A stretch of 64,000 bases of DNA from Thiomonas sp. FB-Cd. GTDB taxonomy: Bacteria; Pseudomonadota; Gammaproteobacteria; Burkholderiales; Burkholderiaceae_C. Positions 11,088 to 41,172 of this stretch are shown piece after piece; within the stretch, counting starts at the first letter, position 1, and the number at the start of each line of letters is the position of its first letter. The translations under genes were made by a program, and so were the position numbers. Below the pieces are notes generated by a model. The model saw only the letters and a list, made by a program, of their open reading frames with translations, was not told where the DNA came from and made no database searches. The stretch spans positions 682,001 to 746,000 of the forward strand of contig NZ_JPOE01000002.1 in NCBI RefSeq assembly GCF_000733775.1. Direction: 5' to 3'.

Positions 11088-12452
11088 CTAGCGGGACGCG
11101 GTCGGGCTGAACACGCCGCTTCCGGTCAGCAGCTGCAGCGCCACCGTTTGCTGGGCGGTCTGCTGCTCATTGGCAAGCAGCGCCAGTCGCTGGTCGAGCC
11201 AGGCGCGGCGCTGCGCCTGCGCCTGCGGCAACGTCATGTCGCCCCGACGCAGAGCAGCATCGGCGGCAAGCGCAGCTGAGCGAAGCGGCGCCAGCGCTGA
11301 TCGCAAGTCCCTCCGCTGGCTGCGCAGCAGGCGAAGGTCCACCAGCAATTGGGCGACCTGTTCGTGGGTCTGCTTCAGGCGCAGCACATATTCATCGTAG
11401 AGCTTGGCTCGGGTCGCCCGTTGCACGGCGATGGCGCCGCGGCTCCCGTTGAGCAGCGGCAGGTTCAGGGTGACACCGAAGCCCAGCGTGTTCACGTCCG
11501 AAGTATCGCGCGCGCGGGAGATGCCGACGCTCACCGACGGAAACTGTGACAGCACGGCCTCCCGCAGGCGCTGCTCCTGGCTCGCATAGCCCGCGCGCAA
11601 GGCCAGCAGGTCGGGTCGGATGGCAGCGAGCCGCGGCAGGTTGCTCGCTGCGTCGGCGACCGCGGCAGGCTCGTACTGCGGCAGCCCGGCCAGGCGCAGC
11701 GGCGTGCCGGGGCGCAATCCCAGCAACGCGTCGAGCGCGCCCAGCGCCGACGCCTGCTGGCGCGCGTCGGCGCCGAGCCGGCCGCGCAGCGACTGCAGCT
11801 CGACCAGGTCGGCGTCCGCGGTGGTGCGCGGCTCGATTCCTGCGGCCTGCGCCGCACGATCGCGCCGTAGCCTCCGAGCCGCGGCGCTGAGCTGTTCGCG
11901 CAGCAATGCGTCGCGCTCGCGCAAGCCCGCCAACTCGACGGAGTCGCGCTCGGCCGCCGCCGCGGTCTGCCACTCCTGCCACAGCAGCTGCAAGTCGACC
12001 TGGCGCAGGTGGGCACGCCCAGCGGCCACCGCGGCACCACGCGTGATCAGGCTGCCGAGATCGAACTGCAACCCGAGCTTGTAGGCCGTGCTGGTGGCTC
12101 CGCCACCGCTGCCTTGCGGGACTTCGCGCGATGCGCTGAAGGTGGGATCCGGCAGGAGGCCTGCAGCGAAGGCCTGCGCCTGCGCCACGCCCAGGCGGGC
12201 CCGAGCGGCTTGCAAGCGCGGATCGTTGAGCACCGCCAGCGCAGCGACTCCCTGCAGGGTCAGCGGCGCGTCGGGGTCGATGGACTGCGAGGCCAGCGCC
12301 GGAAGCGCGATGCGCCGCGCGTCCACGCGAAGCCGTACGGGCTGCTGCCAGCTCACCGCGTCGGGCAGGGGTCGGGGTGCGTAGCCGGCGCAGGCGGCAA
12401 GGCCCGCGCACAGCGCCACGGCGAGGGCGGCACGCAGGGGACGCCGGCTCAT
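11088..12452 (-). CDS. Outer-membrane efflux lipoprotein, TolC/CusC-like (module A)
   Basis: 454-residue outer-membrane factor of a tripartite efflux pump. A lipoprotein signal ends in the lipobox LAACAGY, so it should be acylated and anchored in the outer membrane. The rest has the two long coiled-coil OEP repeats: first half ALAVLNDPRLQAARARLGVA, second half around LLALRAGYASQEQRLREAVL, with the inner strand SVGISRARDTSDVNTLGFGV. The start at 12452 overlaps the RND stop by ATGA, so the genes are translationally coupled. It is convergent with the ATPase-PAP2 gene. The relative at 33252 has 458 residues. Confidence 0.88.
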   Translation of the reverse strand: MSRRPLRAALAVALCAGLAACAGYAPRPLPDAVSWQQPVRLRVDARRIALPALASQSIDPDAPLTLQGVAALAVLNDPRLQAARARLGVAQAQAFAAGLLPDPTFSASREVPQGSGGGATSTAYKLGLQFDLGSLITRGAAVAAGRAHLRQVDLQLLWQEWQTAAAAERDSVELAGLRERDALLREQLSAAARRLRRDRAAQAAGIEPRTTADADLVELQSLRGRLGADARQQASALGALDALLGLRPGTPLRLAGLPQYEPAAVADAASNLPRLAAIRPDLLALRAGYASQEQRLREAVLSQFPSVSVGISRARDTSDVNTLGFGVTLNLPLLNGSRGAIAVQRATRAKLYDEYVLRLKQTHEQVAQLLVDLRLLRSQRRDLRSALAPLRSAALAADAALRRGDMTLPQAQAQRRAWLDQRLALLANEQQTAQQTVALQLLTGSGVFSPTASR

Positions 12453-15400
12453 GCCGAAACCCCGGGCGAGGCCTGCCGCGCCAGCTGCTTGCGGCGCCAG
12501 TGCAGATACAGCGCCGGGATCAGGTTGGTCGAGCGCAGCGCGCTCCACAGCAGGCCGCCCAGGATCACCACCGCCAGGCCCTGCTCGGGTGCTGCGCCCT
12601 CACCTAGACCCAGCGCGGTCGGCAGCATGCCGAGCATCGCGGTGACCGCGGTCAGCACGATGGGCCGGAAGCGCACCTGGATGGCCTCGCGCACCGCTTG
12701 CTCCAGTGGCATGCCGGCGTTCTCGTTGGCGCGTGCGCGGTCGAGCAGCACGATGGAGTGACGCAGGCCGATGCCCACCAGAGTCAAGAACCCGATCATG
12801 CCAGTGGCGTTGAGCCCGACGCCGCTGAGCACCAGCGCCACCGTGCCGCCAGTCAATGCCAGCGGGATCTCCAGCAGCAAGATCCCGGGAATCAGCAGCC
12901 CGTCGAACTGCAGCAGCAGGATGCCCACCATGATGGCGAAAGCGGCCAGGGTCGCCACCAGCAGGCCGAGCGCGGCTCGCTCGAGCTCGGCGACGAGCCC
13001 GCCGAAGGCGATGCGGTAGCCGGCTGGAAGCTTCAGGCCGCGTAACGCCTTGCGCGCCTGTGCCTCGGTACTGCCCAGCGGCCCCGTGGGCGTGGCCAGG
13101 ATGTCCAGCGCGCGCGCACCCGCGATGTGCCGGATCTGGTTGGGCGTCGGCTCGAGCTGCAGACGCGCCAGCTGACCCAGTGGCGTCCACGCGCTCTCAC
13201 CGGTGCGGATGGGCAGCGCCGCAAGCTGGCCGAGCGTGCGCCGCGGGGCATCGGCCAGGCGTATGTACAGCGGAAGCGGCACGTTGCCGTCGGGCACGCG
13301 GCTGATGACCTTACCTCCGATGAGGGGATCGATCTGCCGGTACAGAGAGCGCGGAGTTAACCCATGCACGGCCAGCGCCGCTGCCGAGGGCTCGATGCTC
13401 AGCTGAGTGACTGGGTAGCCGTCGTTGTCGAACACGTCCGCCAGCGCCGGAACCCGGCGCAGGCGCGCAGTGATCTGTTCCGCAATGGTGCGCAGCTCGG
13501 GCACGCGGGCGCCGAACACGTGGATCACGAAGGGCTGCGGCAGGCCCGACAGGCTCTCGCCCAGGCGCTCGATGGTCGGTGTATCCACCGCCAGCTGCAC
13601 CCCCGGCAGCGCGGACTCGCGCTGGATGCGCTGCCCGATGGCGTCGAGCGCGTTGACGCTCACTCCAGGCTTGAGCGCCACCTGGATCTCGCCGGCGTAG
13701 GCAGGCTCGGTGTAGGTAGTCGATGCCGAGGATCCGATGCGCGCGTAGACATGCGCCACCGCGGGGTCGCGCAGCAGGCGCTGTGAGATGTGACGCACTG
13801 CCGCGCGGGTATCCAGCAGCGAGGCCCCGGGTGGCAGCGTGAAGGACTCCAGCAGTGCGCCTTCGTTGGGCAGCGGCAGGAAGTTGATCGGCACCAGCAC
13901 CAGGCCAACCAGGCTGAGCAGCAGCACGGCGAAGGTCAGCGCCAGGCTGGTGCGCGGGGCGCGGGCGACCCAGTCGAACAGGTGTTCGTTGCCTCGCTGC
14001 ATCCACTCCATAAGGCGCCGGCCGCTGCCCGCCCCGCCCCCGGCGCGCGCGCCGAGAAAGCCCAGCCCCAGCGGAATCAGGGTCAGCGACACCAGCAGCG
14101 AGGCCAGCAATGCCAGAATCATCGCCAGCGAGAAGGGGATGAAAAACAGCCCCACGATGCCCCGACGAAGAGCAGGGGCACGTAGATGGCGACATTCGTC
14201 AGCGTGCCGGTGATGTCGGGCACCACGATGCCGCGCAGCCCAGCCCACACGCCCTGCCAGTGCGCATCGCCTGCTTCCCAGCGGTGGTGGATGCTCTCCA
14301 GCACGATGATCGCGTCGTCGGCCAGCAAGCCGACCGCCACCGTCAAGGCCCCGAAGGTCATCAGGTTCAGGCTTTGACCGAAGGCATGCAGTGCGGCGAT
14401 GGCGATGGCCAGCGACAATGGAATGCTCAGGGCCAGCACGAACACGCCCCGACCGGCGCCCAGCACCCAAAACAGCATCGCCACGGCCAGAAGCGCGCCA
14501 ATCAGCAGGTTGCGGCCGAGATCCGTGCCGACGATGCCCACCAGGTGCCCCTGGTCGTAGGTGCGGACCCAGCGGACGCCCGGCGGCAGCTCGTGCACGC
14601 TTCGCTGCAGCGCAGCCTGCACTGCGCGCGTCACCACACGCGTGGAAGCTCCCGGCTGCTTGATGACGGTGACGGCTACGCTGGGTTGGCCGTCCAGGCT
14701 GACCGCGTTGTGCGTGGGCATGGCCGCGCGCTCGACGCGCGCCAGCGCGCGCAGTGGAATCGGGCTGCGCGGCGTAGCCACGGTCACGGCCTCGAGTTGC
14801 GCGATGTGCACCGGCAGCTTGCGCGCCTCGATCAGCACGTCGTTGTGACCCAGCGTCAGGTAGCCGGCCGGCGCGAGCAGCACCTGCTCCTTCACCGCCC
14901 GCTCGATGGCCTCGACGCCAATGTCGTAGCGGCGCATCGCGCCGAGCTCGGGCTGAATCCACAGCGCCTCTTCGCCGGCGCCGTACACGTGCACGAACTG
15001 CACACCGGGGATCGCGCGCAGCGCCGGCGCGATTTCCGCCTGCACCAGACGCTGCACCCGGGCCGGTGCGATGCCGGCGGGAATGTGTGCGGTGTAGTCG
15101 GCGACCTCGTTGATGGCATTGCCCATGATCTGCGCCACCGGATGCGCCTGCGACGGCAGGCGCGCGCGTGCGCGGTCGATGGCGCTGTTGACGGCCAGCA
15201 GGTCCGCCTGGGCCTGGCTGCCCTGGCGAAACCGCACATCGATCTCGACCGTGCCGTTGCCCATCACCGAGCGCACGCTGCGCAGGCCGGTGAGGGTCAG
15301 GATCTGGCCCTCCAGCGGCTGCACCACCAGGTGCTCGAGCTCAGTGGCGGTGGTGCCGGGCAGATGCGCGGTGACGCTGATCTGCGGGAAATCGAAGCTG

Positions 15401-15522
15401 GGCAGCACTTCCACTGGCGTATGCACGAAGGCGTCGATGGCCCAGGCCAGAACCACGCCGAGCACCAGCAGCCACAGCACCCTGCGCCGCAACAGGCGCG
15501 GTACGGACAAATCGGATGCCAT
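12449..15522 (-). pseudogene. RND efflux transporter, one-base frameshift (module A)
   Basis: Inner-membrane proton-driven pump. The N-terminal half from ATG 15522 (MASDLSVPRLLRRRVLWLLV) has the first helix, porter domains and TM4 with the proton-relay acidic pair in GLLADDAIIVLESIH. The frame breaks at 14160-14163, where four C replace an expected five. The other frame resumes IVGLFFIPFSLAMILALLAS and runs to SPGVSA at 12449. Adding one base gives 1024 residues; the copy at 34625-38811 minus its IS gives 1023, supporting the correction. GLLADDA is more like drug-type than CzcA-type RND pumps, yet the pump lacks close resemblance to AcrB, so the substrate is open. Confidence 0.88.
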
Positions 15523-15528
15523 CGTTCT

Positions 15529-16602
15529 TCAGTCCGGCGGCGTGTAGTGGCTGGCAATGCCGCGGTGGTAGTCGAGCAGGGCGTCGGTGACTACCACTTG
15601 CTGTCCGGCCGACAGGCCGGAGGCGATCGCGGTCCACCATCCTTGCGCCGGCCCGGGAACGACCTGCCGCGGCTGCTCGCCCGCTGGCGTGTGCACCAAT
15701 ACCCACCAGCGCCCCCGGTCGAGGATCAGCGCTTGCGTGGGTACCAGCACCATGCGCTGCGCCGGGCCCTCGAGTACCAACGATCCCCACTGCCCATTGA
15801 TCCACCAGGCCGGTGGCTTTGGGGTGGTCGGCAACACCCCGATGCGCGTGCCGCCGTCGGCAGCCAAAGCGGGCGAGATCGCCGCGACCCTGACGGCGAC
15901 CGCAGCCCCCTCTCCCGAGGGCTTGAACAGCCCCGTCATGCCGACGTGCAGGCGCTGCGCATCGGTGCCGTACACCGCTGCGCGAACCCACAGCCTGCCG
16001 GCAGGCTGCAGCGTCGCGATGGCCTGGCCGGCGCCGAGCTGCTCGCCGTCCGCGGCCTGCACCGAGAGAATGCTTCCTGACGTAGGCGCGCGGACGGTCT
16101 GCAGGCTGCGCGCCTCCTGCAGCGCGGCCTCCGCGGTTCGCACCGCGGCGTGCGCCGACGCCTGGTTTGCCCGCGCCGCATCCAGCGCTTGCTGAGTGGA
16201 GAGCTGGGCGTCAAACTGGCGCAGCTCGATGGCCAGGGCGTTCCCGGCCGCCGACTCGCGTGCCCGGGCGGCCAGCAGTTGCTGCTCCCGTGCCACGAGC
16301 AGCGCGCGCATGCGAGGCCCGGCGATGCGCGCCAGGACTTCTCCGGCCTTGACCGCACTGCCAGCAACGATGCGCAAGCCACCCAGCGTGCCAGCGTCGG
16401 CCGCGCGCAACTGTACCGTGGCAATCGGCTTGACCTGGCCGTAGGCCTGCAGCGTCTGTGGCACCGACTGCTGTTGCGCAGCGACGTAGGGCTCGGCGCC
16501 CGCCCAGGCATGAACTGAAACCCCCGCGAGCACCAGCGCGGCCGCAAGCGCCGACACCGAGCGCAGGCCTCGCGAAGGGCGCTTGTGCATCAGACGTTCC
16601 AT
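15529..16602 (-). CDS. RND membrane fusion protein, HlyD/CusB type (module A)
   Basis: Periplasmic adaptor of 357 residues linking the RND pump to the outer-membrane factor. A signal peptide (SALAAALVLAGVSVHAWAGA) is followed by a lipoyl half (GTLGGLRIVAGSAVKAGEVL), an alpha-helical hairpin rich in Ala, Gln and Arg, the second lipoyl half (VRAPTSGSILSVQAADGEQL), then beta-barrel and membrane-proximal domains. ATG 16602 (MERLMHKRP) aligns with the start of the module B adaptor at 39903; ATG 16590 is an alternative. The start overlaps the M56 gene stop, and the stop lies 6 bp before the RND start, so the genes are coupled. Confidence 0.87.
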   Translation of the reverse strand: MERLMHKRPSRGLRSVSALAAALVLAGVSVHAWAGAEPYVAAQQQSVPQTLQAYGQVKPIATVQLRAADAGTLGGLRIVAGSAVKAGEVLARIAGPRMRALLVAREQQLLAARARESAAGNALAIELRQFDAQLSTQQALDAARANQASAHAAVRTAEAALQEARSLQTVRAPTSGSILSVQAADGEQLGAGQAIATLQPAGRLWVRAAVYGTDAQRLHVGMTGLFKPSGEGAAVAVRVAAISPALAADGGTRIGVLPTTPKPPAWWINGQWGSLVLEGPAQRMVLVPTQALILDRGRWWVLVHTPAGEQPRQVVPGPAQGWWTAIASGLSAGQQVVVTDALLDYHRGIASHYTPPD

Positions 16603-17486
16603 GTCCACAACAGGAAAGGATGAAGAATATCGTTGCCATATGCGGCGCCCCACGCGAGCGCGGCGCCCAGCAACACAAACGCCAGCATCAGGGCAGCGGC
16701 GGCCCGCCACGCCGACAGCTCATACGGTTGGTGGAAGTCGGGCATCGGCGCCAGCAGTCGGTCCACTCGCACGACCAGCGCGCGTGCATCACCCAACAAG
16801 CCAGCTTGGGCGCCAAACACAAACTCCCCACGCGTTGCACGAGGTGTACTGCGCGCGTGGCGAGCGGTGGCTACGACCGCCGCGGCGAGATTGGTGCCGG
16901 AGGCTCCGCGATTGCGGGCCTCGTCATCACGGGCATGTTCGAGGAGCTCCAGCCAAGCCTGAAATCGCCTGTGCGCCCACGGCCAGGGCCATTGCAGGTC
17001 CGTGGCCAGCTGCGCCAACCAGATGCGCAAGGGATCTCGATGTCGGGCATGCGCCCGCTCGTGTTCCAGCGCGGCGTGCATCGGCCCGTCGTCCATCACT
17101 CGTGCAAGATAAGGGTCGAACACTACGCGCGGCTGCACGAGGCCGACAGTGCACACGGGCAGCTCCACCGGCCGACGCAGCAGCACCCAGATCGCGCGCA
17201 GCGCCGCACGCAGCGCGACAACTAGGAAAGGCAGACTGGCGCCGACGATCATGCCGTGATCGAAACGCGTCGTCACCGGGTCGGGCTCGCGCAGGGCCCA
17301 ACCGCACAGCCACACACCCACCACCAGCACCGGCAGCACCGGTAGCCACAGCCGTCGCCACGCCCTTCGCTCGGCCACGACGGGCGAAGCGTCAAGTGAC
17401 GCGCGCGATGGCAGCAGAGCCAGCGGTTGCATCACGAGACCACCGAACAGCATGACCAGCAGGGTCAACAGAGTCTCACGCCCCAT
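16590..17486 (-). CDS. M56-family membrane metallopeptidase, BlaR1-like without sensor domain (module A)
   Basis: 298-residue integral membrane zinc protease. The active site HERAH is at residues 142-146, and the downstream acidic cluster EHARDDEA probably supplies the third zinc ligand. There are about four membrane helices (near residues 5-25, 50-70, 85-110 and 255-280). In BlaR1/MecR1 a penicillin-binding sensor follows the last helix; here only ILHPFLLWTWNV remains. The protein therefore should cleave the BlaI-like repressor in response to a signal sensed elsewhere. ATG 17486 overlaps the blaI-like stop by 11 nt. The module B protein has exactly the same length. Confidence 0.85.
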   Translation of the reverse strand: MGRETLLTLLVMLFGGLVMQPLALLPSRASLDASPVVAERRAWRRLWLPVLPVLVVGVWLCGWALREPDPVTTRFDHGMIVGASLPFLVVALRAALRAIWVLLRRPVELPVCTVGLVQPRVVFDPYLARVMDDGPMHAALEHERAHARHRDPLRIWLAQLATDLQWPWPWAHRRFQAWLELLEHARDDEARNRGASGTNLAAAVVATARHARSTPRATRGEFVFGAQAGLLGDARALVVRVDRLLAPMPDFHQPYELSAWRAAAALMLAFVLLGAALAWGAAYGNDILHPFLLWTWNV

Positions 17487-17871
17487 GATCGCCCCTCTTC
17501 CTGGCCTGAATCGCGCGCTCGAGCGCATCGAGCAGCGCAGGGTCGATGTCGCCCGCCGCTTCGACCAGCGCTGCCACAGCCGAGTGTGGGCCAGGCCCCA
17601 GGAAACGTCCCATCAGCTGTCGCGCCCTGGCGCGCTCGACCACGTCTCGCTCGACAAGCGGCGCATAGGCGAAGGCTCCGCCTTGCCGGCTGCGCTCGAT
17701 CAGCCCTTTGTCGCGCAGTCGGTCCACGACCTTGGCCGTTGTTGTGTAGACCAAGCCTTCCGGCGCACCGATACGGTCATGCAAGTCCCGGACAGACGCC
17801 TTGCGCAGCTCCCACAGGCCACGCAACACCGCGTATTCAAGATCGTCGGCGGGAAGTCGAAAATTCAGCAT
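17476..17871 (-). CDS. BlaI/MecI/CopY-family transcriptional repressor (module A)
   Basis: 131-residue winged-helix repressor: MLNFRLPADDLEYAVLRGLW, recognition region GLVYTTTAKVVDRLRDKGLI, wing GGAFAYAPLV, then a short dimerisation helix pair. The region where BlaI is cut by BlaR1 corresponds to LMGRFLGPG. ATG 17871 was chosen over an in-frame TTG at 17877 because the module B protein begins at the same residue. It is first in a five-gene operon with M56 peptidase, adaptor, RND and outer-membrane factor. An operator dyad lies 10 bp upstream. By analogy it represses its own operon until the M56 protein inactivates it. Confidence 0.9.
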   Translation of the reverse strand: MLNFRLPADDLEYAVLRGLWELRKASVRDLHDRIGAPEGLVYTTTAKVVDRLRDKGLIERSRQGGAFAYAPLVERDVVERARARQLMGRFLGPGPHSAVAALVEAAGDIDPALLDALERAIQARKRGDHGA

Positions 17872-17877
17872 GGGCAA

Positions 17878-17907
17878 AGTCTACGACGGACGTCGTACGA
17901 CAGTCAA
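17878..17907 (-). promoter_or_regulatory. Promoter and BlaI-type operator of module A
   Basis: On the minus strand TTGACT (17907-17902) and TAGACT (17883-17878) are spaced by 18 bp and look like -35 and -10 elements. Between and over them lies the dyad TACGAC-GGAC-GTCGTA (plus-strand 17882-17897). The same dyad, TACGAC-GACA-GTCGTA, occurs at the same distance before the module B repressor. BlaI/CopY proteins bind such TAC…GTA dyads, so repression by promoter occlusion is the likely mechanism. The leader is very short. Confidence 0.7.
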
Positions 17908-18400: not shown

Positions 18401-18427
18401 CTGACGTTGGCCGGCGTCGTGTTGGAG

Positions 18428-20245: not shown

Positions 20246-20249
20246 CGTC

Positions 20250-21227: not shown

Positions 21228-21238
21228 GAAGTTTCCAC

Positions 21239-23308: not shown

Positions 23309-23314
23309 GGCGAG

Positions 23315-23998
23315 CTAGCAAGGCTCGACTTCAAGGCCGTCGTGCAAGCGCGCTGTTCCAAGTGCGGGAATCCGCGCTCGTCCACGGCGAACGAGATCGT
23401 AGATCGCAGCGCGCAGGATCTCATCGGCGTCCTCGCTGGCAACGCCTCCCCCAACACACTTGATCAAGCGCGCGATGGGCGTCGGGGCAACTAGCAACAG
23501 CTCGATACGCTCCAGGCAATCTGCGGTCAGACTGCTCTGGTAGCTTCTGCAGTACTGCAACATCAAGGTCCAATTCTCGACCGCGTGTCCTGCTTCTTCC
23601 TCTGCAACGACTTCCTCGATCGTGCATCCGGCATCTGCAGCCCAGATCCGGAACGCGGCCAGTTGCTCAGCCCGCTTCGCCTCGGCCGCCGAACCGAGCT
23701 TGCGGACTAGTAGGATGAGGCGATTGGCGCCGTTGCTCCTTGCCCAAAAGTCAACTACTCGGCGTGGTTGGCAGTCGGGGAGGACCAATGGCCGCTCGCA
23801 CAACTGCGTGACCGCCGGGTCTACCTCAAGTTGGATCCAAAGACCCAGCGGCCCTCGGCCGAACAAGGTCAGCTGCCGCCCAGCCTTGATGCTATACACA
23901 TCGAATCGGTGAGCGCCGTACGGTCGGCGCCCTTCGGCCGACTGGCTGTAGGGCGGCCGGACTGCGCTGGCCGGGACCGAAAGATTCGGAGGGCTCAT
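23315..23998 (-). CDS. tnsA: TnsA-like endonuclease
   Basis: 227-residue protein located first in the operon, 6 bp before tnsB. A TnsA-like nuclease core is visible: E58 in IQLEVDPAV followed by CERPLVLP, D83 in RRVVDFWAR, and K100 in ILLVRK. In Tn7, TnsA cuts the 5' strands so that transposition is cut-and-paste. The usual Q-x-K reads V-R-K here, a departure from Tn7 TnsA. The C-terminal part is probably the winged helix that touches TnsC. The identification rests on these spaced residues plus position; start GTG 24001 is also possible. Confidence 0.65.
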   Translation of the reverse strand: MSPPNLSVPASAVRPPYSQSAEGRRPYGAHRFDVYSIKAGRQLTLFGRGPLGLWIQLEVDPAVTQLCERPLVLPDCQPRRVVDFWARSNGANRLILLVRKLGSAAEAKRAEQLAAFRIWAADAGCTIEEVVAEEEAGHAVENWTLMLQYCRSYQSSLTADCLERIELLLVAPTPIARLIKCVGGGVASEDADEILRAAIYDLVRRGRARIPALGTARLHDGLEVEPC

Positions 23999-24130
23999 CA
24001 CGTGGACTGGCTGCTTGAGGGACGAGAACGCGCCAATGCTGCACCCAGCCCACCCTTGCGGTCAAGTCGCGCCCTCTTCCCGCGGAATGGCATCGCCGAT
24101 CGCACGGAGGCTTTGCGCATTCGACCAATA

Positions 24131-32800: not shown

Positions 32801-32976
32801 AATACATGGACCTGAAGGATCTGCCACGTCGTGCGGCTGGCCGGTGTAGTCGTGCGATTGACCTGACCCTGCGCTACACGCGCGCGGACTTCGGCGTCGG
32901 CAAGACCTTCAATCAGCTCTAGCGGGTTCGACTCGGTTATCAAGGTTGATGAGTTTCCACGCTGCCAATGGCACAT
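29806..32976 (-). CDS. P-type ATPase fused to C-terminal PAP2 phosphatase domain (copy B)
   Basis: 1056-residue relative of the fusion at 7694, with the same order. ATPase motifs: LDESLLTGESDAV (canonical TGE), MVPQGLVLLTS, DKTGTLTE with D314, and GDGVNDIPALKRADVG. The PAP2 part has KLALHRPRP, PSGH at 935-938 (canonical, unlike PSDH in copy A) and SRLYLGAHWLSD. The two copies are clearly alike along the whole length but diverged, so this is not a recent duplication. It lies downstream of the module B outer-membrane factor on the same strand, 275 bp away; in module A it is convergent. ATG 32976 has GAGG upstream; copy A suggests the true start may be slightly internal. Confidence 0.9.
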   Translation of the reverse strand: MCHWQRGNSSTLITESNPLELIEGLADAEVRARVAQGQVNRTTTPASRTTWQILQVHVLTRFNALLGALWVIVVAVGSWQDTLFGGVILVNALIGIAQELHAKRILDRLALQAASRPRVIRSGRAVEVNSEDVVLDDILELAAGEPVPVDAVVLAGTGLELDESLLTGESDAVARHPGDALRSGSLVVAGAGRCRVTAVGKAAWIHRLDHEARRFNLAHSELRTGIDRILRVVGWALVPTGTLLFLSQFALGIPPGGALLYGAAGVVAMVPQGLVLLTSVALAIGAMRLARHRALVQDLAATEALARVDVICLDKTGTLTERELRVERLEPLRAEPDATRALAALAAAESHPNATLLAVARAWPKQADGPTVGETVAFSSARKWSGATLEGLGTWVLGAPDILLADRSQPTLGRARELANSGFRVLLLARSTTTLVAEHRPEQLDPVALVLLSEQVRADAKTTLRDLAACGIAVRVISGDHPATVAGIARELGIAGADQPVDASTLSEQELILRAGSAMVFGRTAPRQKEVIVSALQSAGHAVAMVGDGVNDIPALKRADVGVAMGAGTAAARAVAQLVLLDNRFASMPAIMAEGRRVVGNIERVAVLFLTKSVYAMLLALAVGLAGVAFPFLPRHISLVDALTIGLPAFLLSLEPNGERLRPGFVERVLHFAAPAGLFVAASSFAAYALVHTQWGLAQARSAATLTLFAVATAVLTLASAPTSRRRALLVGAMVALFIATITVPSLRGFVALRALPLGAWVECTAVATAAIVALHWSRAVAASTPPRRAPNRRWERRELTHWLIGADSPKVFLLVGAVLVVGGAWLFFGVMEDVISRDPLVLVDVEVFRMLQALHNGLLDRAMVAITEIGDVQVLLPVIVAALAWFVVQRLWLTAAYWIAAVGTAELLAEVIKLALHRPRPQLLYTGAAQFSFPSGHAVMSTVVYGFLAYLLLRRARVAWRHTGSAMAVSLVTLIGFSRLYLGAHWLSDVLGGLAFAVAWVALLAMAYAYQSRERLRARALSVVMLAVFGVAAFVHIATSLEADLVRYTPVGVTK

Positions 32977-33251
32977 TTGCGCCTCGAAGGGCGCGCGGCC
33001 ACCCTAACTCCATTGTGCGCGCACACGCAGCGGTTCCTGATGCGCACCGGGCTACCTCTTCGATCGCCGCGTCAATGATCCATTTTGGCGAGCAGGGGCG
33101 GCATTGCTCTGCAGAAATATTGCATGGTTGCGTGTCCGGATCGCGTTCATCCGAGTGATCTTCGAATCCAGGTCATCGGGGGCGGGACTGCGACCACCGC
33201 CGGACTGCAAGCCCCAACAGGGTGCAAACATTCGGCGCAGCGGGTCCCGTT

Positions 33252-34628
33252 TCATTGCGCGCCGGCTGGCGCGAACACTCCGCGTCCGGTCAGCAACTGC
33301 AGCGCCACCGTCTGCTGGACAATCTGCTGCGCATTGGCCTGCAACGCCAGGCGTTGGCCCAGCAAAGCCCGGCGCTGGGCCTGTGCCTGGGGCAGCGTGA
33401 CATCGCCTTGCCGCAATGCCGCCTCAGTGGCCTGTGCGGCGGCGCGCAGCGCCGGTAGCGCGGCGCGCAGCGTGGCATGCTGCTGACGCAGCAGACGGAT
33501 GTCGGCCAAAAGCTGCTCGACTTCGGCGCGGGACTGGCGCAAGCGCAACGCGTAGCCGTCATAAAGCGCCTGGCGCGTGGCGGTCTGCACCGCGATGGCG
33601 CCACGGCTGCCGTTGAGTATCGGCAACCTGAACGTGACGCCGAAGCCGACGGTGTTGACGTCCGAGGTGTCGCGGGCGCGCGAAATACTGATCCCCACCG
33701 ACGGGAACTGCGACAGCACCGCCTCGCGCAGCTTCTGCTCTTGGCTCTGGTAGCCGGCCTGCAAGGCCAACAGATCCGGGCGGATCGTACCCAGATGGTG
33801 CAATGCGGCAGCGGCGGCACGCAGTGCCGCGGGGTCCAAGCGCGGCAGGCCTGCAAGTAGCAGTGGTGTACCCGGGCGCAGCCCAAGCAGGGCATCGAGT
33901 TCGGCGAGTCGAGCTTGGCGCTGCCGGGCATCGGCGGCAAGCTGTTGCTGCAGGGCCTGCAGCTCCACCAGATCGGCATCTGCCGTGGTGCGCGGCTCGA
34001 TGCCAGCCTTCTGCTCGCTGCGGTCGCGGCGCAAGCGCTTGAAAACCGCGTCGAGCTGCGCTCGCAGCAGGGCGCCACGCTCACGCAGTCCGACTGCGGC
34101 GACGTAGTCCGCTTCGGCCGCCGCGGCTGTCTGCCATTCCTGCCAGAGAATCTGCAGATTGACCTGGCGCACATGCGCCCTGCCCGCCGCTACGGCGGCG
34201 CCACGCGTGATCAGGCTGCTTACGCTCAGGCTCAACCCGAGCTTGTACGCCGTGGTTGTCGGGCTGCCGGAATTGCCTTGGGGAATCTGGCGCGATGCGC
34301 TGAACTGCGGATCCGGCAGCAGCCCGGCCGCAAAGGCCTGGGCGCGGGCCACGCCCACCTCGTCACGCGCATCGCGCAACGCCGGACTGTTGAGCACAGC
34401 CAGCGCGGCGACGGCCTGCATGGTCCATGGCGCGTCCAGGTCGATGCGCTGCGCGGCCAGCGCCGGTAACGCGATGTCACGCGCATCGACGCGCAACTGT
34501 GCCCGATCACTCCATTGCACCTCGGTCGGCAGCGGCTTCGGGCGATAGCTCGCGCAGGCGAATAGCAGGCCACACAGACCTAGGGAGGTCGCGCCGCGCG
34601 CCAGGCGGCTGGTGATCGATGTTTTCAT
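33252..34628 (-). CDS. Outer-membrane efflux lipoprotein, TolC/CusC-like (module B)
   Basis: 458-residue outer-membrane factor with the lipobox LLFACAS after the signal MKTSITSRLARGATSLGLCG. The two OEP repeats match those of the module A protein block by block (for example SISRARDTSDVNTVGFGVTF). The start overlaps the RND stop by ATGA. With the RND gene disrupted upstream, this gene lies beyond an insertion of opposite orientation, so polar effects on it and on the ATPase are likely unless a promoter lies nearer. Confidence 0.88.
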   Translation of the reverse strand: MKTSITSRLARGATSLGLCGLLFACASYRPKPLPTEVQWSDRAQLRVDARDIALPALAAQRIDLDAPWTMQAVAALAVLNSPALRDARDEVGVARAQAFAAGLLPDPQFSASRQIPQGNSGSPTTTAYKLGLSLSVSSLITRGAAVAAGRAHVRQVNLQILWQEWQTAAAAEADYVAAVGLRERGALLRAQLDAVFKRLRRDRSEQKAGIEPRTTADADLVELQALQQQLAADARQRQARLAELDALLGLRPGTPLLLAGLPRLDPAALRAAAAALHHLGTIRPDLLALQAGYQSQEQKLREAVLSQFPSVGISISRARDTSDVNTVGFGVTFRLPILNGSRGAIAVQTATRQALYDGYALRLRQSRAEVEQLLADIRLLRQQHATLRAALPALRAAAQATEAALRQGDVTLPQAQAQRRALLGQRLALQANAQQIVQQTVALQLLTGRGVFAPAGAQ

Positions 34629-35496
34629 GGCGCTTGCTCTGCCGAAGCTTGGCGCACGAGTTGCTTGCGCCGCCAGTACAGATACAGCGCCGGGATCAGG
34701 TTCGTCGAGCGCAGCGCGCTCCACACCAGTCCGCCCAGGATCACCACCGCCAGTCCCTGCTCGGGAGCTGCACCTGCGCCCAGGCCCAGAGCGGTGGGCA
34801 GCATGCCCAAGATCGCGGTGACTGCGGTGAGCACGATGGGACGAAAGCGGACTTGGATGGCCTCGCGCACTGCCTCCTCGACGGACATGCCTGCGTTCTC
34901 GTTGCTGCGGGCGCGGTCCAGCAACACGATGGAGTGGCGCAAGCCGATGCCCACCAGGGTCAGAAAGCCGATCATGCCGGTGGCATTCAGGCCGACGCCG
35001 CTGAGCACCAGCGCCACCGTGCCGCCGGTCAGCGCCAGCGGGATCTCGAGCATCAGGATGCCCGGGATCAGCAGTCCGTCGAACTGCAGCAGCAGGATGC
35101 CGACCATGATCGCGAAGGCCGCCAGGGTCGCCAGCAGCAGGCCGATGGCTGCCTGTTCAAGCTCGGCGGCCAGGCCGCCGAAGGCAATGCGGTAGCCGGC
35201 AGCCAATTGCAGCCCGGCCAGTGCGCGCCGCGCCGCCGCCTCGGTACTGCCCAGCGGCCCGGTCGGCGTGGCCAGGATGTCCAGGGCGCGCGCTCCGGCG
35301 ATGTGACGGATCTGGTTTGGAGTCTGCACCAGCTGCAGGGTTGCGAGCTGGCCCAACGGGGTCCAGCCGCGTGGCGTGCGGATCGGCAGCGCGCCCAGTT
35401 GCGCGATCGAGCGCTGGGGCGCATCGGCCAGGCGTATGTAAAGGTCCAGCGGCACGTTGCCCTCGGGTACGCGGCTGAGGATCTTGCCGTCGATTA

Positions 35497-36609
35497 TAGA
35501 TAAGGCCCAATAAAATATGAACTTTCAGCAAGTTTTTTGATCCATTGATGATGGAAAAAGAAAACGCAAGGAAGCAAACACTGGAGCAACTTCACGAGCG
35601 GCGCAAGCAAGTCGTGAGGTTGCACAAGCGGGGCGTCAAGATCATGCAGATCGTGGACATGACGGGGCTGAGCTACCCGCCCGTTCGAGCGGCCATTGAC
35701 TTGTACGAGGCTGGCGGCTGGAGCGCCATCCGACCGACTCGGCGGGGACGCGCCAGAGGCGACGGTCGGGTGCTCAGTCAAGCGCAAGAAGAGACGATCC
35801 AGCGCCTGATCATTGACACGCGTCCCGAGCAACTCAAGATGGACTTTCACCTGTGGAGCCGCGCTGCAGTGATGCAGCTCATTGAACAGGAGTTCGACAT
35901 CAAACTGCAGGTGCGCAGCGTTGGAAAGTACCTCACCCGCTGGGGCTTTACGCCACAAAAGCCGATCAAGCGAGCCTATGAGCAAAGCCCCGCGGCGGTG
36001 CAGGCTTGGCTGGAGGGGGAATACCCCGCCATTGAGCAGCGCGCCAGGGCTGAGGGCGGGGAAATTCACTGGGGAGACGAAACCGCGCTGGTCAACACGG
36101 ACGTGCGCGGCAGAAGCTTTGCCCCTGCGGGCAAAACCCCCGTGGCGATGGCGGTGGGCGGCACGCGCCAGAAGCTCTCGATGATCGCCACGGTGACCAA
36201 CCAGGGCAAGACCCGCTGGATGATCATCGACGAGGCGTTTGACGCCGACAAGCTGATCGAGTTCTTGCAGGCGTTGATCAAGGATGCAGGCAGGAAGGTA
36301 TTCCTGATTCTGGACAACCTGAGGGTGCATCACAGCAAGTTGGTGAAGGCGTGGGTCGCCTTGCACAACGCGCAGATCGAGCTGTTTTACCTGCCCAGTT
36401 ACAGCCCCCAACTCAACCCTGAGGAGAGGCTCAACGCCGATCTCAAACAGGAAATGGGCAAACGCGTGCCGGTGCGAACCAAGGCCAAATTACGCGAAGC
36501 TGCGAACGACCATATGGCGAGGCTGGAACAAAACCCGCAACGTGTGATGAGCTACTTCCAGGACCGGCGCGTTCGCTACGCAGCTTAATACTTCACAGGG
36601 CCGGAGCAA
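35497..36609 (+). mobile_element. Complete IS630-family insertion sequence
   Basis: 1113 bp element flanked by TA duplications (35495-35496 and 36610-36611), the hallmark of IS630/Tc1 transposition. The ends are imperfect inverted repeats: left TAGATAAGGCCCAATAAAAT, right (reversed) TTGCTCCGGCCCTGTGAAGT, sharing GGCCC and further spaced positions. It carries one transposase gene. Orientation is opposite to the module B operon it interrupts. Confidence 0.92.
35548..36588 (+). CDS. IS630-family DDE transposase
   Basis: 346-residue transposase. The N-terminal winged helix-turn-helix includes HKRGVKIMQIVDMTGLSYPP. The catalytic core carries D in IHWGDETALV, D in VFLILDNLRVHHS and E in LNPEERLNADLK, the D-D-E pattern of this family. 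Full-length and without interruptions, so probably active. ATG 35548 or the next codon may be used; an in-frame TTG at 35545 is less likely. Only a stem of family similarity links it to the transposase fragment at 1-222. Confidence 0.93.
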   Translation: MMEKENARKQTLEQLHERRKQVVRLHKRGVKIMQIVDMTGLSYPPVRAAIDLYEAGGWSAIRPTRRGRARGDGRVLSQAQEETIQRLIIDTRPEQLKMDFHLWSRAAVMQLIEQEFDIKLQVRSVGKYLTRWGFTPQKPIKRAYEQSPAAVQAWLEGEYPAIEQRARAEGGEIHWGDETALVNTDVRGRSFAPAGKTPVAMAVGGTRQKLSMIATVTNQGKTRWMIIDEAFDADKLIEFLQALIKDAGRKVFLILDNLRVHHSKLVKAWVALHNAQIELFYLPSYSPQLNPEERLNADLKQEMGKRVPVRTKAKLREAANDHMARLEQNPQRVMSYFQDRRVRYAA

Positions 36610-38814
36610 TAGTGGCGCGAGTTGCGCGTACAGAGCCGCTGGGGTCAGGGCCTGCACCGCAAGAGCTTGCGCCCGGGGCTCGATCTGCAGTTGCGTGACC
36701 GGATAGCCATCATTGTTGAACACATCTGCTAGGGCCGGAATGCGGCGCAGACGTGCAGTGATCTGCTCGGCTATCGCGCGCATCTCGGTAACCCTGGCGC
36801 CGAACACGTGGATCACGAAGGGTTGTGGCAGGCCAGACAGGCTCTCGCCGACGCGCTCGATGGTCGGCGTGTCCACCGCGAGTTGCACACCGGGAAGCCG
36901 GGATTCGCTCTGGATGCGCTGACCAATCGCGTCCAGAGCGTTGACGCTGACGCCGCGCTTGAGCGCCACCTGGATCTCGCCGGCGTAGGCAGGCTCGGTG
37001 TAGGCGGTCGACGAGGCCGAGCCGATGCGCGCGTAGACGTGGGCGACCGCCGGATCGCGCAACAGACGCTCGGAAATCTGCTGGACCGCTGCGCGGGTGT
37101 CGAGCAGCGAGGCCCCTGGTGGTAGCGTGAACGACTCCAGCAGCGCACCTTCATTGGGAAGGGGCAGGAAATTGATCGGCACCAGCACCAGGCCGACCAG
37201 GCTGATGAGCAGCACGGCGAAAGTGATGGCCAGGCTGGTCCGCGGCGCGCGTGCGACCCAGTCAAACAGGCGTTCGTTGCCGCGCTGCAACCAGTGCAGC
37301 AGGCGTTGGCCGCTGCTCGTTCCCGGGCTCGGTCGAGCGTTGATGAAACCCAAGCCGAGCGGAATCAGGGTGAGCGACACCAGTAGCGACGCCAGCAGCG
37401 CCAGAATCATCGCCAGCGAGAAAGGGATGAAGAACAGACCGACCAGACCGCCCACGAACAGCAACGGCACGTAGATCGCGATGTTGGTCAGGGTGCCGGT
37501 GATGTCCGGGATCACGATGCTCTTGACGCCTTCCCAGATGCCTTGCCAATGCGAGTCGCCGCTTTCCCAACGGTGGTAGATGCTCTCGAGCACGATGATC
37601 GCGTCGTCTGCCAGCAAGCCTACAGCGACGGTCAACGCGCCGAAGGTCATCAGGTTCAGGGTCTGCCCCAGTGTATGCAATGCAGCGATGCCCAGCGCCA
37701 GCGACAGAGGAATGCTCAAGGCCAGGACGACGATGCCGCGTCCCGCTCCCAGCACCCAGAACAGCAAGAGCACCGCAAGCACCGCACCAATCAGCAGGTT
37801 GCGCCCTAGGTCCGTGCCGACGATGCCGACGAGGTGCCCCTGATCGTAGATCCGCACCCAGTGCACGCCGCCGGGCAGCTGCGACAGCGTCTGGTCTAGC
37901 GTTGCCTGCACGGACCGCGTCACGGCCAAGGTCGATGCACCGGGCTGCTTGATCACCGTCAGCGCCACGCTGGGACGACCATCGAGCGCTATGGCATTGT
38001 GGGTCGGAACGGCCGAGCGCTGGATGCGCGCCAGGGCACGCAGCGGAATAGGGCCCTCGGGTGTGGCAACCGACAGCGCGTCGAGCTGGTCGACGTGCAC
38101 CGGCAGGCTGCGGGCCTCAATCAGCACGTCGTTATGTCCCAGGGTGAGGTAGCCCGCCGGAGCGAGCAGGATCTGGGATCTCACCGCTTGCTCGATGGCC
38201 TCGACGCCGACGTTATAGCGTCGCATCGCGCTCAGATCAGGCTGGATCCACAGGGCTTCCTGACCCGCGCCGTAGACGTTGACAAACTGCACTCCAGGTA
38301 TCGCGCGAAGCGCCGGTGCAATGTCGGCCTGCACCGCGCGCTGCACGAGGGCCGGTGCGATTCCGGGCGGAATCTGCGCGGTGTAGTCAGCCACCTCGTT
38401 GATCGCGTTGCCCATGATCTGAGCCAGCGGGTGGGCCTGCGCAGGCAACTGCGCGCGTGCACGGTCGATTGCGCCGTTGACCGCCTGGAGGTCAGACTGC
38501 GCGCTGGTTGTCGGGTCAAAACGCACGTCAACCTGGACCGTCCCGTTGCCCATCACCGAGCGCACGCTGCGCAGGTGAGTCAGGGTCAGGATCTGGCTTT
38601 CCATCGGATACACCACCAGCTGCTCAAGTTCCGTCGCGGTCGTGCCTGGCAGATGCGCGGTGACGCTGATTTGCGGATAGTTGAACTGCGGCAGTACCTC
38701 GACCGGCGTGTGCACGAAGGCGTTCACGGCCCACAACAGCGCCGCTGCGAGCACGAGTAGCCACAGTACCCGGCGCCGCAACAGGCGCGGTATGGAAACG
38801 TCGGCGTCCATGAC

Positions 38815-39903
38815 TCAATCGGGAGGGGTGTAGGACCGAGCAATGCCGCGGTGGTACCGCAGGAAGGCGTCGGTCACGACGACCTGCTGTCCGGGAAGCA
38901 GGCCCGAGGCGATCGAGGTCTCCCAGCCGTGCGCCGGCCCGGGGACCACCTGCTGCGGTTTGTCACCCTGAGCTGTGTGCACCAGCACCCACCACCGACC
39001 GCGGTCGAGGATGAGCGCGCTGGTTGGCACCGCAACCATGTGGCGGGACGGCCCATCGATGCTGAGTGTTCCCCATTCGCCGGCCATCCATGCGGCGGAG
39101 GCGATGGGCGATGTGGGCGTAAGGCCGACGCGCAAGCCCCCGTCGGACGTGAGGGCCGAGAAGATGGCGGTCAGCCTGACGGCGATCGGCCTACCACCGG
39201 CGACCGGCTGGTAGCGTCCCTGCACGCCTACATGCAGCAAAGCGGCGTCGGACCCGTAGTACTGGGCGCGAACCCAGAGCTTGCCATCGGGCTGCAGGGT
39301 CAGGACGGTCTCGCCGGACGTAGCCTGTTCGCCATCGGCCGCGCGCAGGGCGATCACTTTGCCCGCCACCGGGGCGCGCACGGTCTGCAGATCCTGGGCT
39401 TCGCGAAACTGCGCCTCCGCTGTGTGGACGGCGGCGCGCGCAGCCGCCAGCTCGCTTTGGGCCGCATCAAGCAGCTGCTGGGTAGCCAGCTGATCTGCGT
39501 ATTGGCGGCGAGCGATGTCCAGAGCGCGGCTGGCGGCCTCCTCACGCGCTTTGGAACTGCGCAGGCGCTGCTCGCGCGCGGTGAGCAGAACCTGCATTCT
39601 CGGGCCACCAAGGCGGGCCAGTACCTGGCCTGCACGTACAACACTGCCCGGCACCACATCGAGGCCCCCCACCGTTCCCGGCTCGACGGCGCGCACCCGG
39701 ACCACAGAGATCGGCTCGACCTGGCCATAGGCGCTCAGGGACTGCGTCAGGGTTTGGGCCCGCGCGGTGGCGAAGTCGCCTTGGTCCGCGGCGGCCGCGA
39801 TTGCCTGCGTTGACCCGGCATCGAAAATGCAGCACGCGGCAAGAAGCAGAGTAACGGCCAAGCGTCGTCCCTGCGGTTCACGCGTGGCGATCAGACAGTC
39901 CAT
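38815..39903 (-). CDS. RND membrane fusion protein, HlyD/CusB type (module B)
   Basis: 362-residue adaptor: signal region RRLAVTLLLAACCIFDAGST, lipoyl halves GTVGGLDVVPGSVVRAGQVL and VRAPVAGKVIALRAADGEQA, a helical hairpin between them, barrel region, and C-terminus ending in RGIARSYTPPD, which matches the module A adaptor (RGIASHYTPPD). The start at 39903 overlaps the M56 stop. It presumably bridged the RND pump of module B; that pump is now split. Confidence 0.87.
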   Translation of the reverse strand: MDCLIATREPQGRRLAVTLLLAACCIFDAGSTQAIAAAADQGDFATARAQTLTQSLSAYGQVEPISVVRVRAVEPGTVGGLDVVPGSVVRAGQVLARLGGPRMQVLLTAREQRLRSSKAREEAASRALDIARRQYADQLATQQLLDAAQSELAAARAAVHTAEAQFREAQDLQTVRAPVAGKVIALRAADGEQATSGETVLTLQPDGKLWVRAQYYGSDAALLHVGVQGRYQPVAGGRPIAVRLTAIFSALTSDGGLRVGLTPTSPIASAAWMAGEWGTLSIDGPSRHMVAVPTSALILDRGRWWVLVHTAQGDKPQQVVPGPAHGWETSIASGLLPGQQVVVTDAFLRYHRGIARSYTPPD

Positions 39904-40787
39904 GTCCAGACGAGGAAGGGGTGAAGAATTGAGTTGCCGTACGCAGCACCCAGGGCAACAACGATCCCGAGCGTGGCGCAAGCCATGCCAAGCAAAGCGG
40001 GATCGCTGAGACGCATCCAGAGCGTGGCACCGGCCGGCTCTGGCAACGGAGCAAGCAACCTGGCAACGCGCGTTTGCAACCATCGGGCTTCGCCAAGCAG
40101 GGCAACGTCGATGGACGTGCTCCACCGAGAGCGTCGCGGCTGAGAGGTCGGCGAGGAGCGGCGAGCCGTGGCGACGATGGCTGCCGCGAGGTCGACACCG
40201 CAGGCACCGCGGCTGCGGGCCTCATCGTCACGGGCGCATTCCAGAACTTCCAGCCAGGATTCGAAACGCCTGCGAACCCAAGGCCAGGGCCATTGGAGGT
40301 CGGTGGCAATTTGAGCGAGCCATATGCGCAGGGGATCATGGTGCCGCACATGTGCCTGCTCGTGCGCCCAAGCCGCCCGGACCTGCCCCTCGTCCAGAGT
40401 CCGTGCGTGAAATGGGGAGAATAGGATCTGCGGGCGCAAGAGTCCGACGGTACAAATCGGCAGTTGCGTCGGTTCGCGCACCATCACCCAGATGGCTCTG
40501 AAAGTGGCGCGCAAAGCGACCAAGGCGAACGGCATGCTCGCAGCGATCAACATACCGTGATCGAAGCGCGCGCGCACGGGATCGGGTTCCCGCAAGGCCC
40601 ATCCGCACAGCCATGCGGTCACGACCAGCGTGGGGGCGACCGGCAGCCATAGCTGCAACCAAGCGCGACGCTCGGCAATGCGCGGATCCTCCTCGGGAAA
40701 CGGTCTGCGAGAAATCAACGCCAGCGGTTGCGCGGCCAATCCGCCAAACAGAAGCAGCAATATTGTCAGAAGGGTTTCACGTCCCAT
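39891..40787 (-). CDS. M56-family membrane metallopeptidase, BlaR1-like without sensor domain (module B)
   Basis: 298 residues, the same length as its module A relative. Active site HEQAH at 142-146, downstream LECARDDEARSRG with the probable third zinc ligand. Four membrane helices; the C-terminus is only GNSILHPFLVWTWTV after the last helix, so no penicillin-binding sensor. Conservation of the short tail (ILHPFL-x-WTW-x-V) in both copies suggests it has a role, perhaps contacting the periplasmic adaptor or a signal protein. ATG 40787 overlaps the repressor stop by 11 nt. Confidence 0.85.
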   Translation of the reverse strand: MGRETLLTILLLLFGGLAAQPLALISRRPFPEEDPRIAERRAWLQLWLPVAPTLVVTAWLCGWALREPDPVRARFDHGMLIAASMPFALVALRATFRAIWVMVREPTQLPICTVGLLRPQILFSPFHARTLDEGQVRAAWAHEQAHVRHHDPLRIWLAQIATDLQWPWPWVRRRFESWLEVLECARDDEARSRGACGVDLAAAIVATARRSSPTSQPRRSRWSTSIDVALLGEARWLQTRVARLLAPLPEPAGATLWMRLSDPALLGMACATLGIVVALGAAYGNSILHPFLVWTWTV

Positions 40788-41172
40788 GACTGAATCTCCT
40801 CTTGTCCCGGATCGCGCACTCGAGTTGCTCGAGAAGATCAGGATTAATCTCGTCAACGGCTTCGACTAACGCTGCGACTGCCGCATGGGGGCTGGGCCCC
40901 AGGAAGCGGTTTACGAGATGACGAGCACGCGCCCGCTCCACTGTTTCGCGCTCGACCGCAGGGGCGTAGACAAAGGCAGCCCCCTCCCGGCGTCGCTCGA
41001 CCAGTCCCTTGTCGCGCAGGCGGTCAATAACCTTCGCGGTTGTTGTATAGACCAAGCCGTCTGGCGCGCCAACGCGCTCATGCAAGTCGCGCACGGAGGC
41101 GGTACGCAGGTCCCACAAGGCGGTGAGCACTGCATATTCAAGGTCATCAGCGGGTAGGCGGAACTGAAGCAC
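40777..41172 (-). CDS. BlaI/MecI/CopY-family transcriptional repressor (module B)
   Basis: 131-residue winged-helix repressor starting at GTG 41172 (MLQFRLPADDLEYAVLTALW). The recognition helix region GLVYTTTAKVIDRLRDKGLV is almost identical to that of module A, consistent with the shared operator. The zone equivalent to the BlaI cleavage site reads LVNRFLGPS. Differences concentrate in the C-terminal dimerisation part. The two repressors may cross-regulate both modules. Confidence 0.9.
   Translation of the reverse strand: MLQFRLPADDLEYAVLTALWDLRTASVRDLHERVGAPDGLVYTTTAKVIDRLRDKGLVERRREGAAFVYAPAVERETVERARARHLVNRFLGPSPHAAVAALVEAVDEINPDLLEQLECAIRDKRRFSHGT

Follow-up and report, generated by a model that had tools for sequence, protein, structure and literature searches.

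P6-type ATPase-PAP2 fusions beside RND efflux pumps in Thiomonas sp. FB-Cd: two diverged BlaI-M56 modules of known parts in a new combination

In the literature drawn on here, and as far as the excerpted sources extend, CtpE is the one P6 ATPase with a functional description (PMC5615198, PMC10654040). The parts consulted describe this archetype of the P6 family as a Ca2+ uptake pump (PMC5615198), and the family marks given in the consulted part of a review are PEGL in transmembrane segment 4 (TM4) and an Ile replacing the TM6 Asp of Ca2+ efflux pumps (PMC10654040). A different kind of P-type ATPase is found in PbrA/PbrB lead resistance, which the excerpts present as a partnership of PbrA with PbrB, a phosphatase of undecaprenyl pyrophosphate (C55-PP) (PMC3431237, PMC8195591). 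Fusion of PAP2 phosphatases to DUF368 or DedA is, in the part of the literature seen, a published clue to translocation of undecaprenyl phosphate (C55-P). The current study concerns a bacterial locus in which a P6-type ATPase and a PAP2 phosphatase form a single protein, encoded next to an RND efflux pump and a BlaI-M56 regulatory pair. The locus was analyzed in a stretch of 64,000 nt (hereafter the window) from Thiomonas sp. FB-Cd, contig NZ_JPOE01000002.1 (assembly GCF_000733775.1), positions 682,001-746,000 of the forward strand. Six homologous genes make up each of two modules, A (7694-17871) and B (29806-41172), which share one 34-kb stretch of this 2.78-Mb contig, as follows (OMF, outer-membrane factor; MFP, periplasmic adaptor; ORF, open reading frame).

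7694..10879, plus strand: module A P6-type ATPase-PAP2 fusion, about 1061 aa (Pfam; P6 and PAP2 motifs)
11088..12452, minus strand: module A OMF (OEP by Pfam; start inferred within ORF 11088-12548)
12449..14164, minus strand: module A RND permease, C-terminal piece, in the other frame (ACR_tran positions 453-1018)
14119..15522, minus strand: module A RND permease, N-terminal piece (ACR_tran positions 6-457)
15529..16590, minus strand: module A MFP (TIGR01730 127 bits, cut-off 94.9; start inferred)
16590..17486, minus strand: module A M56 metallopeptidase, 298 aa, without sensor domain (Peptidase_M56 31.8 bits, cut-off 31)
17476..17871, minus strand: module A BlaI-family repressor, 131 aa (Penicillinase_R 75.5 bits)
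17882..17897, no strand: module A palindrome TACGAC-N4-GTCGTA, putative operator (pattern scans)
29806..32976, minus strand: module B P6-type ATPase-PAP2 fusion, up to 1056 aa (Pfam; P-type ATPase fold)
33252..34628, minus strand: module B OMF (OEP by Pfam; start inferred within ORF 33252-34724)
34625..35494, minus strand: module B RND permease, C-terminal piece (BLASTP; NCBIfam; border from the related locus L011)
35495..36610, borders approximate, plus strand: IS630-family element within the module B RND gene (NF033545; uninterrupted L011 site)
36611..38811, minus strand: module B RND permease, N-terminal piece (ACR_tran positions 6-726)
38815..40125, ORF limits with the true start inside, minus strand: module B MFP (TIGR01730 119 bits)
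39891..40787, minus strand: module B M56 metallopeptidase, 298 aa (Peptidase_M56 31.6 bits; fold suggestive of BlaR1)
40777..41172, minus strand: module B BlaI-family repressor, 131 aa (Penicillinase_R 82.2 bits)
41183..41198, no strand: module B palindrome TACGAC-N4-GTCGTA, putative operator (pattern scans)

Pfam recognized E1-E2_ATPase plus PAP2, OEP, ACR_tran, HlyD, Peptidase_M56 and Penicillinase_R in each module and, together with BLASTP, bears out an earlier note on this DNA, which had described two modules of the same six proteins at these places, a shared five-gene order and an inverted ATPase gene in A. In module A, the ATPase-PAP2 gene lies on the plus strand and is followed by OMF, RND, MFP, M56 and BlaI, all on the minus strand; BlaI is the first transcribed gene of this minus-strand set, to which the ATPase-PAP2 gene is convergent. 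Module B has the same gene order, with ATPase-PAP2 last and on the pump strand. Overall, the homologous proteins of A and B are 53-88% identical by BLASTP: 70% over 1042 aa for ATPase-PAP2, 69% for OMF, 78, 85 and 88% for the RND pieces, 53% for MFP, 59% for M56 and 71% for BlaI. The equal lengths given in the earlier note for BlaI (131/131, from the chosen starts) and M56 (298/298) were likewise recovered. Such a correspondence, six proteins in the same sequence of genes, is not due to chance.

The N-terminal 780 residues of the fusion constitute a P-type ATPase, whereas its C-terminal part is a PAP2 phosphatase with the motifs of that family, which we take to be K-x6-RP, PSGH and SR-x5-H-x3-D. 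A fold search based on the predicted structure of the fusion yielded P-type ATPases in all 50 rows shown, and the ATPase-PAP2 junction (residues 778-830) was modelled at a confidence (pLDDT) of about 40, which precludes interpretation of domain packing. Among 68 aligned fusion rows, TM4 reads PEGL in 48/68 and PQGL in 20/68, with Gln in both window copies, and the TM6 site is occupied by Ile (60), Leu (6) or Val (2), with Ile in B and Leu in A. By these sequence marks, the ATPase half is of the P6 (CtpE) type. Features of heavy-metal P1B ATPases were not found in the window copies, in which TM4 is PQGL and no HMA domain is recognized by Pfam. Most of four stand-alone relatives share the P6 marks; at the TM4 position two have Glu, one Gln and one Lys, the latter being an Enterococcus row with a different TM6 stretch; a further row, a spurious ORF unrelated to ATPases, was set aside. 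An invariant M5 Lys (68/68) had been considered as a mark of lipid flippases and was dropped, as it also occurs in the stand-alone relatives. The PAP2 motifs are near-invariant in the 68 rows, copy A having PSDH (Asp there in 8/68). A protein search with the fusion gave 963 matches, and among the 120 listed there were 58 full-length fusions and one partial fusion, the other 61 containing PAP2 and LssY domains, together with DedA in 60 of 61. The PAP2 half is, by sequence comparison, kin to these DedA-PAP2-LssY proteins, and a protein of plasmid pB1701 has the composition ATPase-PAP2-LssY. At this plasmid locus (L047, 11992-17814), the order response regulator, histidine kinase, TolC, MFP, RND is succeeded by the ATPase-PAP2-LssY fusion and then by a VTT(DedA)-LssY protein with a central part that is matched by the PAP2 profile of this study, but not by that of Pfam. 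On the 4.3-kb contig of L075, a P-type ATPase stretch occupies its own frame beside a PAP2-relative gene (6-920 and 2224-3015).

One of the key features of the fusion is its proximity to RND genes. Ten fusion loci were available with genomic context (A, B, L047, L053, L054, L055, L056, L059, L065 and L066). Within 200 bp of the fusion, an RND gene or piece is present in 7/10 of these, and within 1.7 kb in 9/10; Thiomonas FB-6 (L066) is the only fusion locus without RND in its 20-kb window. Among 27 control loci encoding PAP2 relatives without the ATPase, RND occurs in the fetched window in 6/27 and within 5 kb in 2/27, a rate that is lowered by several controls whose contigs stop after a few kb. 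One of the two controls with RND closer than 5 kb, L077, is itself a BlaI-M56 locus. Most of the controls are frames close to 680 aa in length, L082 having one of 298 aa; only L077 was checked with Pfam as DedA-PAP2-LssY, and 27 of the 28 fetched loci were counted, with L089, an ATPase-side match, excluded. The co-occurrence of fusion and pump in other genomes, which the earlier note had proposed to look for in gene neighborhoods, is thus evident. Identity to the RND of B (N-terminal piece) is as low as 27-28% for the adjacent RND partners at L047, L056 and L059. BlaI-M56 is present at 6/10 fusion loci; three of the nine RND-linked loci lack it, and L047 has the annotated response regulator and histidine kinase at its fusion locus. 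Outside this genome, the arrangement BlaI-M56-MFP-RND-fusion recurs in four genomes (L053, L054, L055 and L065), all from a single other genus. As these four are congeneric and the ATPase tree places L056 near L059, the ten loci amount to about five independent cases.

The second conserved element is the BlaI-M56 pair. Penicillinase_R scored 75.5 (A) and 82.2 bits (B) in BlaI against a cut-off of 22.6, and the palindrome TACGAC-N4-GTCGTA is found 5' of blaI in 27/27 loci examined, in 26 of them exactly. Exact copies in the whole genome are confined to the two blaI promoters, and with up to one mismatch the genome contains five sites vs 21 for a backward-read control pattern; the single-mismatch sites elsewhere are G000:C2:243467, C2:1978057 and C5:1500446. 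A window scan with up to two mismatches found no palindrome other than the two blaI sites, a count of matches that was also reached in 20/100 shuffles. The weight of the palindrome in the sequence lies in its exactness, position and conservation, whereas its match count by itself is not rare. Between the end of the palindrome and the assumed blaI start codon there are 10-14 bp in 26 loci, and since this spacing leaves almost no leader, blaI transcripts may possibly be leaderless. The M56 zinc-protease motif HExxH and its downstream Glu (E-A-R-D motif) are present in 28/28 aligned rows. At 298 aa in both copies, M56 does not contain a C-terminal penicillin-binding sensor domain. Among 7999 candidates scored, 1518 M56 relatives were found at E 1e-8; the 120 listed of these 1518 are 294-312 aa in length and mostly unnamed or termed "hypothetical protein". 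The fold of the module B M56 is suggestive of the membrane-protease part of BlaR1, and a profile sequence search of solved structures returned only chance-level formate-transporter matches. Of 20 named M56 loci, RND follows M56 in 17 (L007 ends too early; none is present at L020 and L022), and an OMF was recognized in 6/20, several contigs ending before the OMF position. BlaI-M56 without RND in about 10 kb was encountered at L022, L057 and L058. Control of the pump operon by BlaI would fit the conserved palindrome.

Based upon these features, we propose, with a probability of roughly 0.4, that a BlaR1-like switch drives an RND pump and that the fusion serves as a pump-associated accessory acting on envelope lipids or cations. 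A cell-envelope role is suggested by the combination of a BlaR1-like protease, a lipid phosphatase with cousins fused to carrier-lipid flippases, and a tripartite pump. BlaI presumably occupies the palindrome and represses the operon. M56, as a sensor-less zinc protease of the BlaR1 type, would directly sense a disturbance of the membrane or wall and remove BlaI, upon which the tripartite pump would be made and the offending compound or ion expelled. The ATPase-PAP2 fusion would be the inner-membrane partner of this class of pump, its PAP2 half hydrolyzing a lipid (pyro)phosphate on the outer face, most likely undecaprenyl pyrophosphate, and its P6 half carrying a substrate inward, which may be a cation, as for CtpE, or possibly the lipid product itself. 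The two halves together would keep the carrier-lipid cycle and the envelope running under the stress answered by the pump. Co-transcription of the fusion is possible in B and in the BlaI-M56-MFP-RND-ATPase sets of the relatives; in A it is encoded in the opposite direction.

Several results weaken the interpretation given in the earlier note. Firstly, a fixed six-gene system must be rejected because most M56-bearing genomes lack the fusion. Among 19 genomes of named M56 carriers, which include Thiomonas and metagenome assemblies, the fusion is present in 1/19 (Thiomonas FB-6) and absent from 18/19, four having a PAP2-side match only; 19 of the 20 named M56 loci entered this count, as L006 shares its assembly with L004. 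In an order sample of 399 genomes, 15 match the fusion at E 1e-40, six of them over the whole query, while M56 occurs in six genomes and fusion plus M56 in four, such that 2/6 M56 carriers are without the fusion. A phylum sample (398 genomes, E 1e-70) gave a match to the fusion query in the own genome only, the family of G217 in 4/67 genomes, all of one genus, and a class sample in 15/274 at E 1e-40, consisting, besides the own genome, of 13 PAP2-side matches and one ATPase-side match (L089). Secondly, the ATPase gene of module A has no operator. The earlier note had placed both pump and ATPase under the BlaI/M56 switch, of which the pump part agrees with the conserved operon palindrome; no palindrome precedes an ATPase gene, which leaves control of the ATPase in module A unsupported. 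Direct BlaI control of the ATPase genes was discarded, as operators in the window (up to two mismatches) sit at blaI only. A consensus scan of the module B OMF-ATPase gap found neither promoter nor terminator. Thirdly, the linkage in A despite inversion, from which the earlier note had argued for functional coupling, may be the product of rearrangement, since the flank of the A ATPase gene is syntenic with FB-6, in which 29 kb separate pump and fusion. Window 3034-10845 aligns with Thiomonas sp. FB-6 DNA as three segments of about 90-92% identity, the module A ATPase and its upstream flank being syntenic except for one ~2.6-kb gap. The FB-6 pump (84% DNA identity to A) is on the same contig, 29 kb from the fusion and in the same relative orientation. 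As judged from this alignment, either the pump moved beside the ATPase here, or pump and ATPase parted in FB-6. Lastly, both RND permease genes are interrupted. In module A, RND is split over two frames (467-aa and 837-aa ORFs) with the break near 14150, whereas in module B an IS630-family element interrupts it (transposase 35545-36588, NF033545 5.6e-71), and the related L011 (94% DNA identity) aligns to 35494 and 36611 with adjacent bases, which identifies an uninterrupted site.

Such lesions raise the question of whether the modules of this genome are decaying remnants, with both permeases inactivated independently and the rest persisting passively, an explanation to which we assign somewhat less than even odds. 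Both pumps are probably inactive here because both permease genes are interrupted, unless the module A frame shift is an assembly error, and the two lesions, if that of A is real, are independent since they differ in kind. A PF00873 profile search of the genome gave 16 stretches, interpreted as 12 above-cut-off RND loci (the two broken genes account for four stretches, one further frame for two and nine frames for one each, the last stretch being below cut-off). The ten other above-cut-off loci are each in a single open frame, as are the RND genes of relatives (stop-to-stop, L053 1017 aa, L077 1024 and L008 1026). However, the remaining genes of the two modules have open frames, both palindromes are intact, the break in A could be a sequencing error, and decay leaves the conserved linkage in other genomes unexplained. 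A recent tandem duplication is ruled out by the M56 tree, the approximately unbiased (AU) test and the separate closest ATPase relatives. The M56 tree, built from 27 proteins, places A among Thiomonas-type rows in a clade of 11 rows (100/100) and joins B to L011 (100/100), and a clade of A and B is rejected by the AU test (p 5.8e-48), in line with the divergence noted earlier as too high for such an event. The closest relatives in the tree of the fusion (65 sequences) are FB-6, P0009 and P0013 for A and P0001 and P0002 for B, all within one 15-row clade. By these phylogenies, A and B are separate acquisitions or lineages brought together, not duplicated here.

An unlikely alternative, albeit one with a described precedent, is metal detoxification resembling that of PbrA/PbrB. 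The ATPase would export a toxic divalent cation to the periplasm, phosphate freed from C55-PP by PAP2 would precipitate the cation, and RND would export the rest. Besides the PbrA/PbrB partnership itself, this would be consistent with ZneA, then CusA, as the nearest solved RND structures by sequence, with CzcB/NccB as second-best NCBIfam for MFP and CopY/TcrY as best for BlaI (all below cut-offs), with mer and chrA on pB1701, and with Thiomonas among the named M56 carriers. The same can be said of L077, which has a P-type ATPase with a near-threshold HMA match (24.0 bits, cut-off 24.8) after the OMF; upstream of its BlaI are the DedA-PAP2-LssY gene and a further PAP2 gene. On the other hand, the BlaI sequences lack a cysteine-rich metal motif, none of the NCBIfam RND subfamily cut-offs is reached by the RND pieces, and TIGR00914 (CusA/CzcA) gives two B pieces 274 and 130 bits against a cut-off of 701, scores lowered because the pieces were scored apart. 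In the alignment, the RND permeases encoded next to the fusion carry two Asp residues (DD) in TM4 and an Arg at the TM10 site, as do the BlaI-M56-linked rows, except for one Asn (L016). We take the DD pair to be AcrB-like and the TM10 site to be Lys in AcrB and Glu in CusA. The TM4 pair and TM10 Arg are also found in the RND genes of L071 and L081, 5.7 and 6.1 kb from PAP2-relative genes, and Glu is the TM10 residue of the L080 RND and of the second L059 RND. Furthermore, the ATPase is P6 rather than heavy-metal P1B, and the archetype CtpE, so far as its source was seen, imports Ca2+ (PMC5615198).

This family membership would suit a plain P6 Ca2+-uptake ATPase with a phosphatase, devoted to envelope calcium and merely sharing stress islands with RND genes. 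CtpE, as the consulted part of its source describes it, is such a pump (PMC5615198), the FB-6 fusion has no RND in its 20-kb window, and RND genes are common, with 12 above-cut-off loci in this genome. We nevertheless consider an uncoupled role doubtful, given that RND is directly adjacent in 7/10 and within 1.7 kb in 9/10 fusion loci vs 2/27 controls within 5 kb, that the fusion also occurs beside RNDs only 27-28% alike, and that TM4 Glu is replaced by Gln in 20/68, both window copies included. The envelope, metal-phosphate, calcium and decay explanations are not wholly mutually exclusive. Quite improbable, in our view, is ATP-driven C55-P recycling alongside RND under envelope stress, in which PAP2 would dephosphorylate C55-PP outside and P6 would flip C55-P inward, by analogy an ATP-powered counterpart of DedA and DUF368 translocases; the idea arises because related PAP2 domains are fused to DedA or a P6 ATPase with LssY behind both, because CtpE transports inward and the TM4 cation-site Glu is lost in 20/68, and because PAP2-DUF368/DedA fusion itself hinted at C55-P translocation.

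The surroundings of the modules contain further features. Upstream of module A blaI, 18704-24001 (minus strand) holds a four-gene set resembling a very divergent Tn7-like transposon, with matches to TnsA-like (0.0057), rve/Mu-C-like (0.0017 and 0.0056), TniB-like AAA ATPase (1.1e-5) and TniQ-like (0.0036) proteins. Directly upstream of module B blaI is a short ORF (41330-41866, minus strand) with a Cas12f1-like TNB domain, a TnpB-like fragment. An inverted repeat of about 300 bp (450-745 and 5259-5554, 71% identical) precedes module A, and a rubrerythrin-like gene adjoins a rubredoxin-reductase-like flavoprotein gene at 42650-44415 (plus strand).

The combination of sensor-less BlaI-M56, RND and P6-PAP2 was not found in the open-licence literature, outside of which lie most subscription journals, and within that scope no paper was found that combines P-type ATPase, PAP2, RND and undecaprenyl; in this literature, the system that the earlier note termed "undescribed" has no description. 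A P6-lipid phosphatase fusion with repeated RND adjacency provides a direct lead to the function of some P6 ATPases and raises the testable possibility that ATP drives one step of carrier-lipid recycling, and a sensor-less M56 of ~298 aa with a defined palindrome is a model for BlaR1-like switches without a beta-lactam sensor. When compared with BlaI-BlaR1/MecI-MecR1, the window shares a BlaI-family repressor beside an M56 zinc protease and a palindrome at the promoter, and its M56 fold is suggestive of the BlaR1 membrane-protease part, whereas its 298-aa M56 is without the penicillin-binding sensor and precedes an RND set, not a beta-lactamase. With CtpE and other P6 ATPases, it shares TM4 PEGL/PQGL, an aliphatic residue substituting for the Asp of TM6 and the P-type motifs, but the fusion contains PAP2 (plus LssY in pB1701), adjoins RND pumps and in the window has the TM4 Gln. 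The DedA-PAP2-LssY proteins are its closest PAP2 relatives (among 120 listed of 963), one of them adjoining BlaI-M56 (L077), yet their transport half is DedA rather than a P-type ATPase. Like PbrA/PbrB, a P-type ATPase is paired with a presumptive C55-PP phosphatase, whereas in the parts of the sources consulted these are separate proteins under MerR-type control, with no RND partner named (PMC3431237, PMC8195591). Finally, the heavy-metal RND proteins ZneA and CusA are the best sequence matches among solved structures, while the window-type RND differs in its TM4 DD pair and TM10 Arg, and its pieces fall under the subfamily cut-offs. No part constitutes a new family; rather, the modules bring known parts into a new combination.

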